A stretch of DNA of 64,000 nucleotides. It comes from Caenorhabditis elegans (Eukaryota; Nematoda; Chromadorea; Rhabditida; Rhabditidae). The stretch lies in contig NC_003283.11 of assembly GCF_000002985.6 (NCBI RefSeq), positions 20,337,501 to 20,401,500 of the forward strand, given 5' to 3'. The notes below the pieces were generated by a model. It searched no databases and was not told where the DNA came from. It worked only from the letters and a program-made list of their open reading frames with translations. The position numbers and the translations under genes are program-made. Of this stretch, positions 2,770-29,432 are shown in pieces (position 1 is the first letter of the stretch; every line of letters starts with the position of its first letter).

Positions 2770-3070
2770 ACCTAGACCCTTAGACCTTCAACAAATTAGA
2801 AACAATAACACTGACCACAATTACATACTCAAGGTGAAGAGGGGATGGGTGAAAAGTATCCTCTCCCCCACAAATCCTTGGGCAGGACAAAGAAGGTGTG
2901 TAATTAGTAAGGGATGGGTGTCCCTTCTCACTTCTGAGGGGACAACCGACTGTCATTAATAACAACAATTCCTTGTAACCTTTGAATTGAAATTAGGAAT
3001 TCTAAGAATTTGAAGTAAAACAGGAAGCGGATGGGGGGGGGGGGGGGGGGTTAGAAGTAGACATGGTGCA
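2770..3070. other. GC-richer island 3 ending in a G-tract
   Basis: A GC-richer stretch between AT-rich repeat blocks, ending with an uninterrupted run of 18 G at 3033-3050. No coding potential is evident. Confidence 0.35.
3033..3050 (+). repeat. G18 homopolymer tract
   Basis: Eighteen consecutive G on the plus strand in an otherwise AT-rich region. Tracts of this length can form G-quadruplex and are known in C. elegans as replication-associated deletion hotspots when the DOG-1/FANCJ helicase is missing. Confidence 0.9.
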
Positions 3071-4139
3071 TCTCGAATGTAAATTGACAACACTTTATGC
3101 TCAGCGAGATTTTTATTACAAAAAGTTCATAATTTTGAAAAAAAAAATTAGGGGAATATCTTAAAAATTGGCGAAGAAAATAATATTCCTAAAAAATTTG
3201 AAAAAAAAAATTGGGTTTTGAAATTGTTGAGGTCTCACTTCGAAAACAATTGGGATACTGTAGTTTTGATACGTTGCAAATTTTAAACACGTTTTTTTGT
3301 TTAGCTGAAAAATCTTAAAAATGATACAAATACATTTTAAAAAATTACGTTTTGAAATTTTGGGTCCCGCCAGGAAAACTCCGGGTTACTGTAGTTCCAA
3401 AGTGCATTTTTTTTTGAAGACATATCATAGTTTTGGAAACTTTAACATTTTCTAATGTTCATTTTTAAAAATAAGAAAAAAAAACCTAGTACACTGCTAA
3501 AGTTACAATGATTGAGAAAAAACTTTTTCTTCAAAAAACATTTTTTGGATCCCGCCACAAAAACTCCTAGGGTACTGCAAGTTTTGTAGCTATTAAAAGG
3601 ATTAAGTTATAATTTTTATTGTCCAGAAGAAAAATAACGCATCAAGTTTTTCAATTAAAATCAGCAAAAAATCTCGAAAATTGGCGAAATCAGATGGTTT
3701 TGAAATTTTGAAATTTTCACAAAAATATTTTTATTCAAAATTTTTTCCGTCCTTGAATTCAGAAAGAGTTTGTTCCGCTTTATAATTTTTTAAATTCGAC
3801 AAAAACCAGAAATTTTAATAAAATTGAAAACACCAAAAAAAAAAAGGAGCTTGGGACTTTCAAGAACGGAAAAAACTTGAATAAAAATATTTTTGTGAAA
3901 ATTTCAAATTTTCCACTGAGGACTTAAATTTTGGCATTTTCATTTTGAAAACAAAAAATGAAAACCTGCCAATCAGTTATTCACCAAAGCTCTAAAATCT
4001 CAAATTTTTTCAAATTTAGACACCACCCGATCAGAAAAATCCGAAAAATCATTTGCATTGCAATTTTTCAAAAACCACTAAATCTCAATGAACAAATTGA
4101 AAATAGAATGAATGAGTTTCCACTACGAAACCCATAAAT

Positions 4140-18659: not shown

Positions 18660-19145
18660 TACTCAAGTATATTTCGGCATTAGCCGTTTTTTCGTTTTTG
18701 TCGACTAGCCGATTTGCTGGAAATTTAAATTTCGGCAATTTGCCGACTTGCCGGTTTTCCGGAAATTTTTAATTCCTGCAATTTGCCAACTTGCCGATTT
18801 ACCGGAAATATTTAATCCCGGCAATTTGCCGATTTGTCGATTTGCCGGAAATTTAAATTTCGTCAAGTAGTCAACTTGTCGGCTTGTCGATTTGCCGGAA
18901 ATTTAAATTTCGACAAGTTGTCGACTTGCCGGTTTGTCGGAAATGTTTAAATCCACCAATTTGCCGGCTTGCCGATTTACCGGAAATTTTTAATCCCGGC
19001 AATTTGTGGACTTTCCGATTTTCCGGCAATTTCAATTACGACAATTTGTCGACTTGACGATTTGCCGGAAATTTTCACTTCCGGTAATTTGCCTGCTTGC
19101 CGAATTGCCAACAATTTCAATTCCGGCAATCTGCCGGAAAAAATC
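18660..19145. repeat. Tandem GCCGGAAATTTAAATTTCGGCAA array
   Basis: Around ten units of about 40-65 bp alternate 'TTGCCGATTTGCCGGAAATTT' and 'AATTTCGGCAATTTGCC'. They belong to the same family as the arrays at 38265-38440, 39215-39380, 57240-58540 and 62730-63850. Frames across it are repeat translations. Confidence 0.85.
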
Positions 19146-19416: not shown

Positions 19417-22400
19417 ATGATTTTCCTGCTATTTACTTTATCGATTTTAAGTCACGTAGAAGCTGGAAGTTTCAAAAATATAGGTTTATCAACTGACAAC
19501 AAGCATCAGTCACCTTGCATTTGGAATCAAACTCATGGTAAGCACACTTTTTCTGAAAATTCTCTTCAAGACCCCAATTTCAGCCTGGTCACATCCTTAC
19601 CAAAGCCTTATCGTTGAATGTTGTGATGAGAGTTTGAAAGATTTGCTACAAAATTTTATTCGCCAGGGTAAAGCTGGAAGCCTAGGAGATCTTGCAAAGG
19701 TTGGTTCAAAGTCTATAAAATTCCCCATAAAAAATATTACAGGTTATACAACGAAAAGCTCAACTGGAGTTCCATGCAAGTTTTGAAGCCATAATTTGCA
19801 AATCGAACTTTGCGATTTCCACTCATTATCATGGATCTCAAGCCTGTAAGGTGCATGTAGAAAATCAGTACTTTTTGATCTACGAGACACCGGTGCAGGT
19901 GAGCTTACAGAATTTGCAACTCTTCAAAATCATTTTCGGTCTCCTAAACTTGTAATTTCTAATATGTATTACCCCGCTAGTGGAACAAATTTAGTAATTA
20001 TGAGCTTTGATAGGAGAATTTCAGACTTTCATCTCCATAGGCTTAGCCTCAAGACGGCTTTGACCCCCAAAATTCTGCCCGTAGTTTTGAGTCCCTAATA
20101 TTAAATTTTCAGGCTTAGTCCCCTCTTAGGCACGCAAACTAGATCTTTTAGGGATAAGTTTTTAAGCTTAGGTTCATGAAGTTTTATAAGTTTCACGTGG
20201 TGTCAGGCTGTCCCATTGCCGTCTGATCTACATACACTGCGGGAATTTTACATGTGTGACGTCAGCACATTTTTAGCCATGCGAAATCAGTTGAGAACTC
20301 TGCGTCTCAAATCCCGCAGTTTTTGTAGATCTACGTAGATCAAACCTACATAAATGGGGTACTCTGACACCAAGTGAAGTTTCCTATGGAATTTTTCGAA
20401 TCAAGTCAACGTATGCCTCTTGTTTTCAAATTCTGATACACCTAAACCTCTTAAATTTTAGTACGACCCCTTCAACATGCATATGGAAAACTACCTCTCC
20501 TCCATTGACTCTTCCGATCCACTAGGCTCCACCAAGCCTCAAGGCCTGCGCGGGGGTTTTAAGGATCATCGCGATGACGTCACTGCTGGCGAGAATCTTT
20601 CTGTTCAGCCAGATGCTGATAATATTCTTCAGTATCCGAACAGGTGGTCTCAACAAGGTCTGCTTGAGTTTTCGCGGCATTTTGGAAACTAACTAGTAAG
20701 TTTTCAGATGCAAAGGAGGAAATCTTCACCACTGAAGCTTCCATTGAAAACGCCTTCGTGTTGGGAACCAATATGTCACATTTGCCAGATATAGCTGAAA
20801 TAGACCTGGTTGGGCCTGTACCTGTACCGAAGAATTTTACAAACCTGCGAATCAGAGATAGGCTCCCGGAGAACACGCATTGCGAAAAGGAACGGAGAGA
20901 TGGTGGGTGACATTTTAGAAGGCTCTGGGCTTTGAAAAATGTTGTGCCAGCTAAAAGGTCTAGAGACTGACTTTTGGCGGCATTTCAAGACAAGAAGTAG
21001 GTTTTCTGAAGTTAGACCGTTTTTTTTTTCAGAAATTTGGTTATAAGTCTGTACGAGGCTAACAAATAATTTGTTCTGAATTCCCATTGTGCTTTTGTTA
21101 CCTCTCACTCATTCATAATAACCTCCTACACAGAAAGTGGGAAACGTGTCCTAACTATTTTTAGCAGATCATACTCATTCCACAGATTGTAAAAATTTTC
21201 CGACACCTTGCCGGTTGCCGCACTGCCCTGGTGCATAGGACCAAACAAAATTAAAAAAAAAAGAGTACCGAGATATAAGCTGTCAAAATTGAATCGATGC
21301 ACCATGTCTAAAACCTCTTTCAACTTCGGTTGCCGAACAGCCCTGGTATGTACACTAGATGTTTTATTTACAGTTTGATTTATGCCGCCTTTCAGCCGAT
21401 ATATTGCGACCTGCATTCTTCCCACTTGCTCTGTTGTTCTCCCCGTGTAGGAGGCGATTATAAATGAGAGCCCAATGTCTGGCCACTGAGCAACTGCAGT
21501 CTTCTGCGGTTGCGCAGTGGCCAGGTCATTTACAATCACCTCCTACACAGGGGGCCAACAGAGCAAGCGGGAAGATTGTAGGTCACAACAATATACCGGC
21601 AGATAGGCGGCATAGATTAAACTGTAGATAAAACATCTAGTATGCACAGGCCCACACAACGCCTAGTTCCATAGCTCCTTACTTTATGACGAATTTCGGT
21701 CTATTCCTTTTCAGGCAACAAATGCTGCAGCGGACCTCTAGCCTCCACGATGAGAGACGCGATGAGCCAAATGGCCAGCTCGCCGGATTTTGGGCCCGGC
21801 GGAGAGGGAATAATTGCTAATGTAAACTTACTATATCTTTATTTAGGTAATTCTTGACAACTTTTTTCCAGAGAATCCAACACTCCGTGCAGCATCGTTT
21901 TAAGTCATCCTATGAAGTGATAGTTTCCCGCTCTGACTTCATGATCTCCACAAGATCTGGCGAGAAGATCTGTAAATTTCAAAGCAAGGGATTCTATATT
22001 TTGGCCTATGCGACACCAAAGCAGTATGATATAGAGAAGGTGGAAGAGGAAAGGAAGCTAGCAGATATTTCAATTCTCGACCCACTTGGCTCCATGGAAT
22101 CCAACTTCCCACACGAGGCACCACAAAATGTGCAACTCCTATTAGAATCTTCTGGAGATCGAGTGGGCTTCCCTGTTGGCTCCCATTGCCTGGAGGAGGT
22201 CAGAACCGGATCCAAATGCTGTAGTATTGATATGTTCAATGCCATGAATGCTGCTTACAACACCCATATGGCTTCTTCCTACTTTAACGCTTATGATATA
22301 AGAAACATATCAAAAGTGGTTCAGTGGAATGTCGAGGAAGTGTTTCAGCACTCTGCTGAGGTTATTGTAGCTCTCGATGATTTTGTGTATGCATCACACT

Positions 22401-25400
22401 ATAATGATAGCTTTACTTGTAAATATCGAGTCGATAGGTACCATATTCTTGCCTACCTTACACCGGATCATAATCTAGACAAGAGGATCAGTGAAGTGGA
22501 AATCCCGAATCAAATCACGCCATCGCCGTATTGGATTACTCCGGTTCCTATGACAGTTCATCAACAACCGATGTTCAATTTACAGCAAAACCTGCTACCT
22601 TATCAATTGCCTACACACTTTAGCTCCCCATTTACTTACGCTTTTGGAAGGATGAAAAGACAGATCGGAACCTCGCCGGTAAGGATTTTTTTGGAAATTT
22701 GCTAAGTTATATAGTTATGAAGCTCCCTTGGCTCATCAAAAAACTTAGCTTCTTTAAATCAGGTCCTCGCGTCGGCGACCTCACGCCGACCGGTCTTTGC
22801 CGTCGCCGTCGCCGTTCGCCGCGCTGTGCAATTTGGCGTGAACTTGTTTGCGTAGTGAGCATTTACGGCTGTACACCGTAGTTGTGCAACGCTGTTTTAC
22901 GCAACGTAGAGCGAAAGGTTGTTATTTGAAAGCGCCCGGCACGTTCGTGGTTCCGCGCTGCACTATACATTCGGATCTAAGCGGCGTGAATGACGCCGTG
23001 AAGCCAGCGCAGGCGCCATTGACGCGGCCCCATGGGTGCTCTACCTTGGGCTTTATCCTAAAGCTTAGGTTCTCTAGTTCAGGTTTTCAGGCATGCATAT
23101 TTGGGCCCAAATCCTTTAAATTATTTTCAATCGAGGTCTTTCGGAATAAGTTCAAAGCCTTTTTTGCTCAGACTAAAGTCTCTTTTCCAGTACCCTATCC
23201 ACCTTTCCATCTTCCACGACATCGGCTATGCGATCCCCATCTTCTGCCCCTCAACTCTCACCGGACTCTTCGGTTCAATAATTTGCGATGGTGGAGTCGC
23301 CTACGATATGATAAGGATTGTAGAGGAAACTCGGCAACAGCCAGGCTTTGACAAGCACAACTCGAGAGCCATGGCGAAAATGATAACCCGAACCATGGAA
23401 CGGAGATTCGACACCACGTTTGACTCGATCGCCGCTGAAGCGGATTTTGCTTGGAAAACACAGAAGTTCAATGGTAGGGTGTCCAAGCTGTATCTGGGAG
23501 GCTATAGTGCGTTGAGCTTCCAGTCGAGCCCGGATCCTCCACCAGCTAGTGATTTTGTTGATGTGGTAGGTTACACTGGTAAGTGATAACTGATATCTAT
23601 AAAGTTCAGGCAAATGATCCAACCGTTGATGGGCCTGTGTATACGGATCGAGAACAAGAAGATGATGATAACGATGACGATGATGGAGGCGATGACATGT
23701 CATCAACATCGACCACGACTACGACTACGGTAGGAGCACACTGACCCTAAAACTCTATAAAGCTGCTTAGATCCCTCCGCCGTTCTTTGCTCTGCCGGTG
23801 CCACCACCACCTCCTGTGCCACCTCCACCTCCACCTCCATTTCTCACCTGCTTCTCAAGGGACACGTGGGTTACTACTCCAAGCGGCAAGAAGCGAATGG
23901 ACGAGATCGAGATTGGAGATTATGTGTTGACTGCTGATCTGAAAACCGTAAGTTACAAGATTTGTAAAGTAACTTCCAGATATTATTATTTCTAAGATCT
24001 GTTTTTATGATATCGCATTTTCCAAAAGGTTCTGAAGTTTAGACATAGGCCCTTAGGTTCTTGGGGAAAATTATTTAAGGTTAGGCAAAAGCCTAAAGAG
24101 CCTGGCTATGAGTTCTCTATGCATAGATATTTAGGCATATGATCCTGACCTTTCAAGTTAGGCACTGGCTGAAATCCTTAGAAAAAATTTCAATGTTAGG
24201 CCCTAGGGTTTTTAGGCTTACAAGGAAAGGTTTTAAGTTTACCCTCAGACTTCGAAATGAGGTATGTGACCTTTGAAAGTACTACCCTAGGGGAGGTCAC
24301 AACGAAATTTTAAGCGGCAAATCTCCACCCCAAACAGCTGAAATTTCGATCTGAAAATTTAGTACTAATTCTGCTGAAAACTCTATTTTTCACGCGTAGA
24401 AAAGTCTACACAAATGTTTTATATTAAAAATCACCGTCCAAATGGCCGATTAGTAACATTCACGTTCATTAATATGACGTTCACGGGTCCGTTTCCCACA
24501 AGCTCTAATTTTTTGCAATATAGCTACTTTGAAGGCTTGTAGAATTGCTCCAAATTTTTTTTTGAAAATTTTCAATGTTTTTCAGAACGTTTATAAGTAG
24601 GCAAACAATCTGGGAGATTTTTGGAAAAATTTAATTTTTTTGAAAAAAATTTAAAATTTTCCAAAAATTCCCCAGATTATTTGCCTACTTGTAAACGTTC
24701 TGAAAAACATTGAAAGTTTGCAAAAAAAATTTTGGAGCAATTCTACAGGCCTCCAAAGTAGTGAAAAATGCACTGAAATAGTTTCAGATCGATGCTAGAG
24801 GGGTTGAGAATGGAGCTTTGCCGCTTAAAATTTTGCAGTGACATATCCTTATGAAACACTTTCAAATGACACATATCTCGTTTTGAAATCTGACGGTAAA
24901 CTAAAAACCTTTCCTTGCACAGTTAAAATGCGATGCGTGCATAGTGTTTTTGGCGTGGATCGCGAGTGGGAGAAAAAGGAACCGGAAATTATGCCCATTG
25001 TGCGCGCATTGTGCGTCCATCGCGAATTTGAGATGCATTTTGCGAGCATCGCGAACATAAATTATGGGCAGATTGTGGATTCTCCTTTTTGATAATAAAA
25101 CTACTAAACCGTGCAAATTCTGAGCATTCAAGACAATTAGTTGAACCAAAATACATTCATTAACAGAGCAAAGTGTTTTTAAAACGACAAAAAGAAAACA
25201 TTATCAACAAAAAATGAAAATCTTAATAACAAAATTATCGAAATATCATCGTTACCATTTCGGTTCTCGAAGTTGGACAAGTCAGCCGGTTCCGTTCCCC
25301 CTCGACAGCTATTGCCTTCATCGCTGAATTTTCCATTAGTGTTTTTAACGTGTAGTATTCCAACTCCAAGCTTCGCGTATTCTTTTCCTTGGAATTTGAA

Positions 25401-28218
25401 CACAGATACTGAAAAATGAACATGGTCCATTAAAACTATGCTTCGAAACTAACTTGCTGCTGAGCACTGCATCCAGCTCTTGATCTTCGTCAATCTTTTA
25501 AGGTTCTAATTTTCCTTCGTCATCCTCGCCAACTTCCCGTTTTGCCTGATTCTGTTTCTCCATGGCTTTCTGTGCGAGATCCGCGAACCCACTGAACTTC
25601 GGTGTTTCCTTCGGCTTGTCACCACTGAAAATTCGATAATGGATTTATGATTAGTTCCATACACCAACTCTTTTCCCAAAAAAGCAAACAGAGATCCTAG
25701 ATTACTTGGAGCCTCTGACTTTTTCGTTCAAAAATCTTTGGTGGGCTCCAGAAAATTGATAATTGTAGCCGTAATTTTACCATTCGATGCTGATGATTGT
25801 TCTTCCTTTTTAAAAACCTCCGATTCGGCGCCACCAGAAGGTCCTCCGCCACGAATCGCTCTTTTACATGGTCACTGGAGCTGTTGGAGCAGGTATGCGG
25901 GTTTTGCGAGTGAAGATGATGTTTCCTTGGCTATCGCTGAGATGTCGCTGAAAATAAAGAAAACTGAGAAACCATCACTCGAAAATGTAAAGTACCTAAA
26001 CTTTAGTACAGATGCGACTGTCTCCGGGTAGAAAGCATCGAAAACTGAAGAATTATGATTTTTCGTAGAATCGACCGCTTTCAGTGTATTGGGCGTTCCA
26101 TTTTCTCGCACTGTTTTGGCTATTTTCCGTGGAGCAATTTCTTCTCCAGAAGTTTAAGACGATTTTTCGGCACCTCTGTAAAATGGATTACGAATTTTGT
26201 TGGACAAAATTACCAAAATATGACGGTGAGAGCGGTCAAAGAAATGTTGATTGAAAAATCTAAATGACAAATCACGAGCTAAAAACACAGGAACTACCAA
26301 GATATTGAACAATTTGTTCTGAGAATGATCAAATATCAGTGGAAAATTCGCAGATTGCAATTTTTTAAGGCTAAATGGTAAAACTACAGTAATCCTGACG
26401 ATTTTTTCGTGTACCAGTAACAAAATACCATGCGGTTTCATTAAATATTTCAATCTCTCCCTGATTAGAGTAAGTTTTTTCTATAGACATGGCAATTTCA
26501 AAAAAAAAATCAATATTAAGATAAATTAATGCATATAAAACAAATTTTCATGAGACAATCAGTAATATAAATCAAAAATTCAATAAAAATGGAATTAAAT
26601 GCGAAAAAATAGGCGAAGAAACACTTCAAATTTTGAATTTATTGGCTCGCAAATGAACACACCTTGGGCCAACTGTGCGCCCATCGCGTTCCGCACGCGA
26701 TGGGCTCGAAATGGGTGGTCGCCGCATGCGATGGGCGCATTATGGCTCTTCATCCACTATGCGCGCATCGCATTTTAACTGTGTTGTTAGGATGAGGTCC
26801 TCAATAATGAGCAACCGCACAGTGGCAAGGCATTGAGACTAGAATAACTCCCGCCTACCACAGGAAGGGTGAGGGCAACAGAGCAAAAGGTAGGGCGCAA
26901 TAAACCGGCAGACAGACTGCGTAGATCAAACTGTAGATAAGACATCTGACATCTTGTGTGCACTGGACCACACAGCACCTAAGAAATGAGCCCTTGGGAA
27001 GAAAGGTAATTTAATTACAGGCCCTCTTCTCGGCAATCACTTTGTGGATCCATCGAGAGCCGGAGACAGTGCAAGAGTTTCTGGAAATTAAAACGGACAA
27101 CGGGAAGACTCTTCAGCTGACGGCCGGTCATTTTATCTATGCGACTGAATGTAGATGTGAGCTTTTTCCCCGTTTTTTTCTAATGAGGTTATTCATGTGA
27201 TGACGAATAAGGTAAAAATGTATTTTAATACATTTTTTCCCTATTCATATGTGTAGAAAAACGTTCAAAAAAACGCATGCATTTTTTGCATTTTTCGACA
27301 TATTTCTACATTTTTCTACAACGAACAACAGCCCTATTCACATGTTGCATGTGAAGTTAAGCATGTGAAGTGGGCTGCCGGCCGATGTAGAAAAATGTTG
27401 AAAATGTAGAAAAATGCAAAAAATGCATCGGTTTTTCTGCATTTTTCTGCATACATCATTGGGGGAAAACATGTATTAAAATACATTTTTCCATTTTTCG
27501 TCATCACATGAATAACCCTCATAAAACTTCCTTTGAAGCATGTTGTTCTATGTAGTGTGCATTTGCCATGAGATTTATAATATCCTAAAAAAGTTATAAT
27601 TGACAAAATTTCAATCCGGTTATTTCAGACCTACCTAGTAAAAACTCATCATTGCTGAATTCAACTCCAGGTACCCAATTTCCAAAAACGAAAAAAAAAG
27701 CCTTCCAATTTAAAAAATTCAGAACGTTATCGCCACCTAATCGATACCTTGCCCGACGACTCGGAAACCAAACTAGCTTCTCAACTGAAAATCGGAGAGT
27801 GTTTGCTAATTCACAATGGGGATCAATTCCGCATGCAGAAAATCGATAGTATCTCAAAAACTGTGAGCACAGGGATATACTCCCCACTGACAGAGAATGG
27901 AAGGATCCTTGTGAACGATGTGCTGGCTTCCTGCTACAGTGAGGTGCAGCAGAATGTGCTGCAGACCACATTTTTCTGGGTAACCTTCATTTTACTATTC
28001 TATTATATAACAGTTAAAATTTTAATATTCTAGGCCTTTGATCGTTTGCGAAATTTGATAGTGCAATATTTTGGAGATCTCTACTTGGACGAGGTATGTA
28101 TACATTTATCAATTTCAATTCTAACTGAAATCCAATGTTTTTCATTTAGATTGAACTTCCAACTGGAACGTCGCTGTACAAAGAGGTGCTCACCTTGGTG
28201 ATTCCTATTCGGAAATAA
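19417..28218 (+). CDS. Hedgehog-related protein: four ground-like modules plus Hint, 977 aa
   Basis: Exons: 19417-19537, 19584-19699, 19743-19898, 20462-20657, 20708-20902, 21715-21821, 21872-22678, 23191-23565, 23610-23729, 23771-23947, 27021-27156, 27629-27670, 27723-27979, 28034-28093, 28150-28218 (2934 nt, all phases agree). A signal peptide (MIFLLFTLSILSHVEA) leads. Ground-like modules lie at about residues 50-131 (ECCDE..YETP), 262-346 (KCCSG..ILAYATP), 413-498 (KCCSI..ILAYLTP) and 600-690 (degenerate, no CC). An acidic Asp-rich and Thr-rich stretch and a polyproline run precede the Hint domain. Hint begins at Cys758 (TCFSRDTW) and keeps TAGH and LASCY, so autocleavage with C-terminal adduct transfer looks possible. 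This is the grd/wrt-type secreted nematode family, usually epidermal. AATAAA is at 28239-28244. Long introns carry several palindromic elements. Exact orthology is not assigned. Confidence 0.9.
20188..20385 (-). repeat. Dispersed CACGTGGTGTCAG repeat, copy 2
   Basis: The same family as 12085-12290, in opposite orientation. It contains GACGTCAGCAC, CAACTGA/TCAGTTGAGAACTCTGCGTCTC, GCGGGAATTT and GTAGATC words and starts at TTTCACGTGGTGTCAGGC. It lies in intron 3 of the hedgehog-related gene. Confidence 0.7.
21110..21660. repeat. Palindromic repeat in intron 5 of hedgehog-related gene
   Basis: Arms at about 21340-21455 and 21540-21655 are diverged reverse complements: CTAGATGTTTTATTTACAGT against ACTGTAGATAAAACATCTAG, and CCACTTGCTCTGTTG against CAACAGAGCAAGCGG. 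The centre (21478-21522) forms a further hairpin, GGCCACTGAGCAACTGCAG / CTGCGGTTGCGCAGTGGCC. Related half-copies occur at 26795-26985 and 36015-36185. Confidence 0.75.
22765..23060. repeat. GC-rich dispersed repeat, copy 1
   Basis: A GC-rich block in intron 7. Its segment around 22905-22975 (GCGAAAGGT ... CGGCACGTTCGTGGTTCCGC ... ATACATTCGGAT) is shared with 28815-28885 in the next gene. Base composition is very unlike the surrounding DNA. The 167-aa frame across it is not supported. Confidence 0.6.
24246..24893. repeat. Foldback element A in intron 10 (about 650 bp)
   Basis: Left arm features (CGAAATGAGGTATGTG, GGTCAC..AAATTTTAAGCGGCAAA, AACGTTTATAAGTAGGCAAA) are mirrored on the right (TTTGCCTACTTGTAAACGTT, TTTGCCGCTTAAAATTTTGC, ACACATATCTCGTTTTG). 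The centre is near 24635. A half-copy lies at about 34130-34260 and a diverged full copy at 36390-36850. All share GTGAAAAAATGCACTGAAA. Confidence 0.8.
24918..26783. mobile_element. 1.87-kb TIR element carrying a NUP50-like pseudogene
   Basis: Terminal inverted repeats of 29 bp with a single mismatch lie at 24918-24946 and 26755-26783, beginning CACAGTTAAAATGCGATGCG. Further GCGATGGGCGCAT-type subterminal repeats follow on both sides. Both ends are flanked by TTG in the same orientation, a possible 3-bp target duplication. No transposase frame is seen. The cargo is host-like coding sequence on the minus strand (listed separately). The element lies in intron 10 of the hedgehog-related gene. 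Confidence 0.7.
25180..26175 (-). pseudogene. NUP50/npp-16-like captured gene fragment
   Basis: On the minus strand, host-like exons with good splice borders can be read: about 26168-25987 (APRKIAKTVRENGTP...), 25950-25778 (KRAIRGGGPSGGAESEV in one frame), 25624-25450 (TPKFSGFADLAQKAM ... KIDEDQELDAVLSSK) and 25417 downward (SVFKFQGKEYAKLGVGILHV). The last two pieces look like the linker and start of the Ran-binding domain of NUP50-type nucleoporins (SK..CKLF..EFKE.GVGTLH pattern). An in-frame TAA interrupts the third piece, right after GKLEP, and the Ran-binding fold breaks off after about 30 residues. It is therefore a decayed partial copy. The family call is inference from motif resemblance. 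Confidence 0.5.
26795..26985. repeat. Half-copy of the intron 5 palindrome family
   Basis: It shares CAACAGAGCAA, CCGGCAGACAG, GTAGATCAAACTGTAGATAA and ACATCT..GTGCACTGGACCACACAGC with the right arm at 21540-21655. Confidence 0.65.
27183..27523. repeat. Foldback element B in intron 11 (about 340 bp)
   Basis: The left arm (ATGAGGTTATTCATGTGATG, then TGTATTTTAATACAT, then GCATGCATTTTTTGC) is mirrored on the right (TGCAAAAAATGCATCGG, ATGTATTAAAATACAT, CATCACATGAATAACCCTCAT). The loop near 27350 contains short CATGTGAAGT repeats. It is non-coding and resembles a MITE; no clear target duplication is visible. Confidence 0.8.
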
Positions 28219-28305: not shown

Positions 28306-29432
28306 TCACATGTTTTTACACCTTATTTGAGAAAAATCATAAGCTGCCCCATAAGCAAAAAAGTAGTAAGTCCATACTCCAGGTGTGTTGAAATTTCCCG
28401 TGTCCCAGCAATCCGCACTGAACGTTCCAGTTCCTCCGAAGTTTGCAGGAAGCTCTCCGACAATTGTCAGTAGGTAGGCGGCGGTGCCTGCAGGGCAGCT
28501 GAAGGTTATTCTAAAAGAAAAATGATTGGGCTGAAGTTTCATGATTTGGTATTGGAATCGTATCTTTTTTAGAACGTTGCACACACACCGGCGCGCGACG
28601 TCGGCGGGAAGCCCGCATTTCGTGCCTCACTCAGCTGGGGGCCCTAGTCTAGTGTTTCTAGATTAAATATAAAGGTTTCAAGCCTTCTAGGATTCGGTTT
28701 TAAACTGAGAATCCCGGCCCGAACTAAGCCTCCAAGCTTTGCAACAGTTCAAAGCTGAAGTACCACAAATATTTGCCTTTCACGTTCTACTAGTAAGGCT
28801 AAGACAGTGCGAAAGGTAAATGTTCGGAAGCAGCCGACACGTTCCGGGTTCCGCGACGCACTGTATATTCGGATACATGCGACGACCTCATGGTAGATCA
28901 ACTTACACGCATTGAGCGTCTGCTGTTGTTTCCTCCGGATATCGTCTGAACATTATTGGAAAACTGCCACTAATCGCACACCAGTCGGTAGGACTTGGTA
29001 CTCCCATTCCTTGACATCCTGCATTGTAGGGTGAGGTGCAAATGTTGCAAGCTGGAAATCTCCAATTATTAGAAAAACGTCTTAAAGTGTAACGACTTAC
29101 GGATAGGCACCACAGTTGTCGTAGTTGTTGGGGCTTCTGTGGTTGTAGTTGTAGTCGTAGTAGTGGTAGATACAGGATTTGTAGTAGTAATAGGTACGGT
29201 TGTAGTCGCTGGAACAGTTAAAAATTGATAGAATTGACGTTAACTAGTTTCAATTAATAGTAAGTTAGTATTGTGACTCACGAGCCGAAATTGTCGTGGT
29301 AGTAGTTATGGTGCCTGGGTTGAGTGCTGGAAATAACTTACTAGAGCTGAGCCAATAAAAAAACTTACGAGTAACAAATTGCGTCGGAATGCAAGCCGCT
29401 GCAAGTTTCACGAAGATGAGAATTAGCAACAT
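28306..29432 (-). CDS. Thr-rich secreted nematode protein, 188 aa
   Basis: Minus-strand exons: 29432-29369, 29326-29282, 29208-29101, 29051-28907 and 28510-28306 (567 nt, phases agree). The start ATG at 29432 sits just after a TATCAG site, so trans-splicing is likely. The first 14 residues (MLLILIFVKLAAAC) are a signal peptide. Residues about 23-72 are dominated by Thr with some Pro and Val, a likely mucin-like O-glycosylated linker. The C-terminal 115 residues contain conserved-looking cysteines (CNIC, GCQG, WCAI, AQC, FSCP, ADCW, IRC). Architecture and layout match the nematode-only DUF281/C6-type extracellular proteins, but the exact Pfam family is uncertain. Its 3' end faces the 3' end of the hedgehog-related gene, 87 bp away. 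Intron 4 contains a GC-rich repeat. Confidence 0.82.
28575..28900. repeat. GC-rich dispersed repeat, copy 2
   Basis: It lies in intron 4 of the Thr-rich gene. It shares the GCGAAAGGT...CACGTTC.GGGTTCCGCG.CGCACTGTATATTCGGAT stretch (about 28815-28885) with 22905-22975. It also contains GCGCGCGACGTCGGCGGG near 28593. Composition is unlike the flanks. Confidence 0.6.

Follow-up and report, generated by a model that had tools for sequence, protein, structure and literature searches.

What kind of protein is built from four Ground modules followed by a Hint domain, and what might such modules do outside the cell? The question is raised by a gene on the forward strand of Caenorhabditis elegans chromosome V, in the 64,000-nucleotide stretch of DNA analysed here (the window; NC_003283.11, positions 20,337,501 to 20,401,500). 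Both the gene and its architecture are already known for C. elegans, because passages of PMC1636047 describe grd-1, grd-2 and grd-11 as four Ground domains followed by Hint/Hog, all three Hog-positive; four Ground domains also appear in a figure legend of PMC2362128, in which, as far as its available text goes, the C. elegans Groundhog genes are three. As the architecture is established, any significance of the locus would lie in the fold, and it is the LC8 fold predicted for the Ground modules that merits follow-up. We propose that the nematode Ground/Ground-like domain is related to the dynein light chain LC8 while being secreted and braced by disulfides, that the four modules, should they pair as LC8 does, could form two LC8-type pairs within one chain, each with a peptide groove, serving as matrix clamps and not as classical morphogens, and that Hint, with a His base, adds an adduct other or broader than cholesterol; to this proposal as a whole we give about an even chance.

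A groundhog gene with two four-module paralogues

Joined at GT/AG borders, fifteen exons form a single reading frame that runs from the initiation codon to the stop codon and encodes 977 amino acids (Table 1). The whole protein scores 200.3 bits against PF04155 (Ground-like; Pfam cut-off 35.4) over four stretches. A home-built profile scores 54.6, 61.7 and 77.0 bits for modules 1 to 3 and 32.0 bits for the envelope of module 4; module 3 of this gene, and the end of its module 2, were themselves in the alignment on which the profile was trained (A2, 27 rows; a second alignment, A4, has 26 rows, and both derive from the 47 PF04155 matches in the genome). Genome comparisons covered C. elegans as the one nematode. 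Taken on its own, module 4 reaches 30.2 bits to PF04155 and thus falls below the cut-off. An earlier note on this DNA had read the span as one 977-residue protein with ground-like N-terminal blocks, three of them clear and one degenerate: the splice borders and the colinear paralogues described below bear out the single protein, the PF04155 score is far above the cut-off, and the score of module 4 agrees with its being the degenerate one.

Two further loci in the genome have four Ground matches and then Hint, at C5:20610495-20613520 (L009) and C6:11110773-11115468 (L010). By tblastn, both match the protein colinearly, L009 over residues 41-977 and L010 over residues 1-977 (the first 40 residues are matched in L010 only, with E 0.001), with gaps at the linkers and with module-to-module cross-matches as well; the colinearity therefore supports one gene. 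It is highly improbable that the 15-exon join is artificial and the span a broken gene or a set of two or more separate genes. The gene model was drawn up from splice-site reading, and the last five exons come after an intron of 3 kb that holds an insertion resembling a mobile element, but homology runs colinearly over the whole span in both paralogues, and the grd-11 entry in the available part of PMC1636047 records no prediction error and one open reading frame sequence tag (OST), together with support from serial analysis of gene expression (SAGE), a point that counts only if the locus is grd-11. The grd-2 entry there has a wrong N-terminus, three expressed sequence tags (ESTs) and one OST.

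We consider it very probable that the locus belongs to the groundhog genes of C. elegans, as a member of the three four-Ground plus Hog paralogues grd-1, grd-2 and grd-11, with grd-11 (K02E2.2) the most likely; a mechanism for it is proposed below. Going by map positions, the locus would be grd-11, and less likely grd-2 (F46B3.5). As a discriminator between these two, an insulin gene of clone K02E2 was sought; an exon-wise search had no Ins_beta match in the window among the matches listed, and the available passages of papers naming K02E2 genes hold no sequence that separates grd-11 from grd-2.

Within the gene, modules 1-4 are 17-34% identical to one another, whereas identity to the module of the same number in the two paralogues is 54 and 56% for module 1, 68 and 68% for module 2, 58 and 69% for module 3, and 49 and 49% for module 4. 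Because identity is 17-34% within the gene and 49-69% across same-numbered modules, the fourfold repeat, judged by sequence identity, predates the triplication of the gene. This is the age that the earlier note had given the modules in calling them old duplications. A recent tandem expansion of the four modules was also considered, and is ruled out by the same figures.

Ground modules 3 and 4 are predicted to adopt an LC8-like fold

Confident AlphaFold2 models of modules 3 and 4, computed as single chains, match LC8 over about 80 residues; compared with what defines a dynein light chain, the predicted models have the LC8 fold. While modules 3 and 4 share this predicted fold with LC8 (DYNLL1/2, DLC-1), they differ from it in bearing cysteines, in belonging to a protein with a signal-peptide-like start, in an identity of about 8-15%, and in a match to the dynein light chain family PF01221 that stays under the cut-off. 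For the whole protein this Pfam match has E 1.2e-4 and 22.8 bits (cut-off 29.1), its best stretch being residues 47-127; modules 1 and 4 alone score 16.3 and 15.3 bits. We regard the likeness of the Ground fold to LC8 as well supported by prediction, common descent of Ground and LC8 as likely but unproven, and LC8-style pairing and groove binding by Ground modules as speculation.

At the level of sequence, support for a relationship with LC8 is weak. A profile search of the PDB gave four hits, all with E above 0.05, and an hhalign comparison with four dynein light chains of the worm covered 33 columns at a probability of 25%. PF01221 was matched at E <= 1 by one of 27 single modules, and phmmer with module 1 against the PDB found no dynein light chain, its sole match being a chance one to COQ8B. 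Three of nine comparisons between profiles and worm dynein light chains scored above all 1000 shuffles, the other six scores being reached by 1, 3, 8, 13, 33 and 47 of 1000. Moreover, the LC8 match was judged without a modelled negative-control protein beside it. Such weak or mixed profile scores, the low identity in the top rows and the many LC8 structures in the AlphaFold2 training set would suit a model that is a chance or memory match, Ground and LC8 sharing only a common alpha-beta arrangement; set beside the confident models of two modules, we judge this explanation decidedly improbable. The available passages of open-licence papers hold no link of the Ground/ground-like domain, or of Hedgehog-related proteins, with dynein light chain or LC8.

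If true, the LC8 fold of Ground modules gives concrete predictions (pairing, a peptide groove, disulfide pairs), and the reading of the modules as LC8-like matrix clamps extends to the Ground-only and Ground-like relatives, some 40 by the counts in the available part of PMC2362128. In a table of that paper, as far as available, 58 worm genes are Hedgehog-related, pseudogenes included, and 46 of them are Ground or Ground-like. The domain is termed a nematode-specific cysteine domain in a passage of a 2025 paper (PMC11925461), and Hedgehog-related proteins are linked to moulting and matrix in passages of PMC11304992.

Elsewhere in the genome, a divergent exon resembling dynein light chains (L052, C1:10323939-10324115; 38.3 bits to PF01221) reads KPKKWHVIVGNDFSVQ and might help to bridge LC8 and the Ground modules.

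Cysteine pairs of the modules

In modules from 43 of the 47 PF04155 genome matches (four were left out), cysteines at strands 52-57 and 80-86 of the model occur either together (20 modules) or not at all (23), without exception; among the 27 rows that pass a 50% identity filter, 15 have both and 12 have neither. Since the matching strands adjoin in the LC8 topology, a disulfide between strands 52-57 and 80-86 fits. In the model of module 3, strand 4-6 carries the leading Cys of CC and strand 72-77 the other Cys; the LC8 strands that match these also adjoin. The disulfides predicted for a module would thus join the leading Cys of CC to the Cys ahead of the last strands, and the second Cys of CC to an upstream Cys. 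In module 4 the CC of the paralogues is replaced by IC, and their Cys ahead of the last strands by Ser, so that this one of the three genes is without two cysteines that both others keep; the joint absence of both partners fits one lost disulfide.

The 20 modules with the extra Cys pair are taken as the Ground-like (grl) type. The grl proteins share the PF04155 module with the locus, whereas the extra pair is absent, at those columns, from the 12 modules of grd-1, grd-2 and grd-11, and Hint is marked for no grl gene in the available part of the table of PMC1636047. The pair thus seems to split the grl from the grd sets, and may reflect one evolutionary event, so that a Fisher test on its co-occurrence does not measure how probable the structure is.

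A Hint domain with His in place of Asp

PF01079 (Hint) is matched with 154.7 bits (cut-off 29.7) over residues 757-967, and Cys758, TAGH and LASCY (residues 917-921), which the earlier note had said were kept, are read in the translation. Cys1, TxxH and the ASCY ending are held in common with Hedgehog (fly Hh, Shh), whereas the Asp that activates cholesterol in fly Hh and marks a cholesterol-transferring Hog domain (fly residue 303, position 46 of Hint) is replaced here by His801. The six families matched at E <= 1 in a Pfam scan of the whole protein do not include the Hedge (signal) domain. Passages of PMC2362128 mention two Hog cysteines that are specific to worms; these may correspond to Cys834 and Cys876.

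The 20 PF01079 matches in the genome correspond to 10 loci, and all ten have His at the place of the Asp; His801 is therefore a family trait and not the decay of a single gene. His as a mark of decay was a candidate explanation that these ten loci rule out. The best PDB match of the Hint domain is 6tyy, a fly Hint with His where 1at0 has Asp303. Judging by the title of a 2019 paper, Asp-to-His in fly Hint reportedly preserves activity. The same change widens the sterol substrates of fly Hint according to passages of PMC8529194, and by analogy worm Hints may have a built-in wider or different adduct choice; the available literature passages hold no statement of such a choice in worm Hints, although the residue itself should be visible in Hog alignments already published. 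That His is common to worm Hints makes the question of the worm adduct testable.

The residue before Cys1 is Thr757 here, Gly in L009 and Ala in L010, and a beta-branched residue at this position can, as in inteins generally, slow the first step. Two further points join this one in weighing against the explanation favoured here: the worm adduct region is described as unlike the fly one, with its adduct unknown, in passages of PMC2362128, where cholesterol addition by worm Hog domains is not clear either; and a grd-11 green fluorescent protein (GFP) construct was without visible expression, with no EST for the gene, in the part of PMC1636047 available. Together with the His in place of Asp and the two cysteines missing from module 4, the Thr and the silent construct might indicate a decaying Hint that folds and no longer cleaves, the product then being the precursor in full, or a fragment of it cut by furin. 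However, Cys758, TAGH and LASCY are retained, the His is a feature of every worm Hint locus, and in fly Hint it admits more sterols; we find decay unlikely, and keep to a Hint that would still transfer an adduct.

A furin-type motif and the proposed maturation

Between modules 3 and 4 lies a furin-type motif, RMKR. The corresponding stretch of L010 reads RRFKRQIG, and L009 is without that linker, its match through module 3 ending at 3060 and the match from residue 567 beginning at 3116. A cut at the predicted site could part modules 1-3 from module 4 and the adduct. The architecture and the old duplication put forward in the earlier note thus stand, while its four-module ligand released by Hint becomes doubtful, because the putative site could split modules 1-3 from module 4. 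The note's further suggestions, a separate partner for each module and possible sterol modification of the ligand, are hypothetical.

In the maturation that we propose, the protein would be secreted, with each Ground module forming a disulfide-braced unit of LC8 fold. Hint would form a thioester at Cys758, aided by TAGH, and, with His801 serving as general base, would pass the N-terminal part on to a small lipid that bears a hydroxyl group. Modules 1-3 may be separated from module 4 by a furin-type cut behind RMKR560, in which case modules 1-3 would leave without adduct and module 4 alone would carry it. In line with proposals for the family, the product would have its role within or on the matrix of the cuticle or precuticle, or else would signal over a short range.

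Table 1. Features of the groundhog gene, by position in the window unless a chromosome is named
Feature	Position	Strand	Basis
Gene position on chromosome	V:20,356,917-20,365,718
Whole coding span, ATG to stop codon, 15 exons, 977 amino acids	19417..28218	+	exon joining and colinear paralogues
N-terminal hydrophobic stretch MIFLLFTLSILSHVEA, signal-peptide-like	19417..19464	+	by eye from translation
Ground module 1, residues 52-126, exons 2-3	19616..19883	+	profile and Pfam
Ground module 2, residues 264-343, exons 6-7	21720..22009	+	Pfam and profile
Ground module 3, residues 412-492, exon 7, predicted LC8-like fold	22214..22456	+	profile and model
Furin-type motif RMKR (557-560), putative, between modules 3 and 4	22649..22660	+	motif reading
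Ground module 4, degenerate, residues 598-676, exon 8, predicted LC8-like fold	23284..23520	+	profile and model
Acidic, Thr- and Pro-rich linker ahead of Hint, exons 9-10	23610..23848	+	translation
Hint and C-terminal adduct-recognition-like region, residues 758-977, exons 10-15	23849..28218	+	Pfam and structure-match alignment
Cys758, Hint position 1, preceded by Thr757	23849..23851	+	translation
Intron 10, 3073 bp, with transposon-like insertion 24918-26783	23948..27020	+
His801, at the place of fly Asp303 (Asp46 of Hint)	27051..27053	+	motif reading
TAGH (824-827), TxxH motif	27120..27131	+	motif reading

Neighbouring gene and repeats

Downstream, on the minus strand, a neighbouring gene has a DUF282 domain (PF03380) at 28942-29055, with 60.5 bits; a second piece of the same neighbour, a frame at 28306-28626, has no Pfam match. 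The transposon-like element in intron 10 is bounded by 29-nucleotide terminal inverted repeats with one mismatch and has TTG on both flanks; its left 230 nucleotides have at least 15 matches in the genome including itself, some of which may belong to one copy. Upstream of it in the same intron, a near-perfect hairpin at 24524-24761 (two arms of 118 nucleotides, 91% complementary, with 2 nucleotides between them) sits inside a longer inverted repeat of 147 nucleotides and 75% (24210-24356 and 24782-24928). Ahead of the gene, a tandem array at 18697-19136 (43-bp unit, about 10 copies, 74% matches) ends about 280 bp before the start codon, and short tandem units of the CATTTTTCTA and ATGTAGAAAA types, in opposite sense, occupy 27280-27425 in intron 11.
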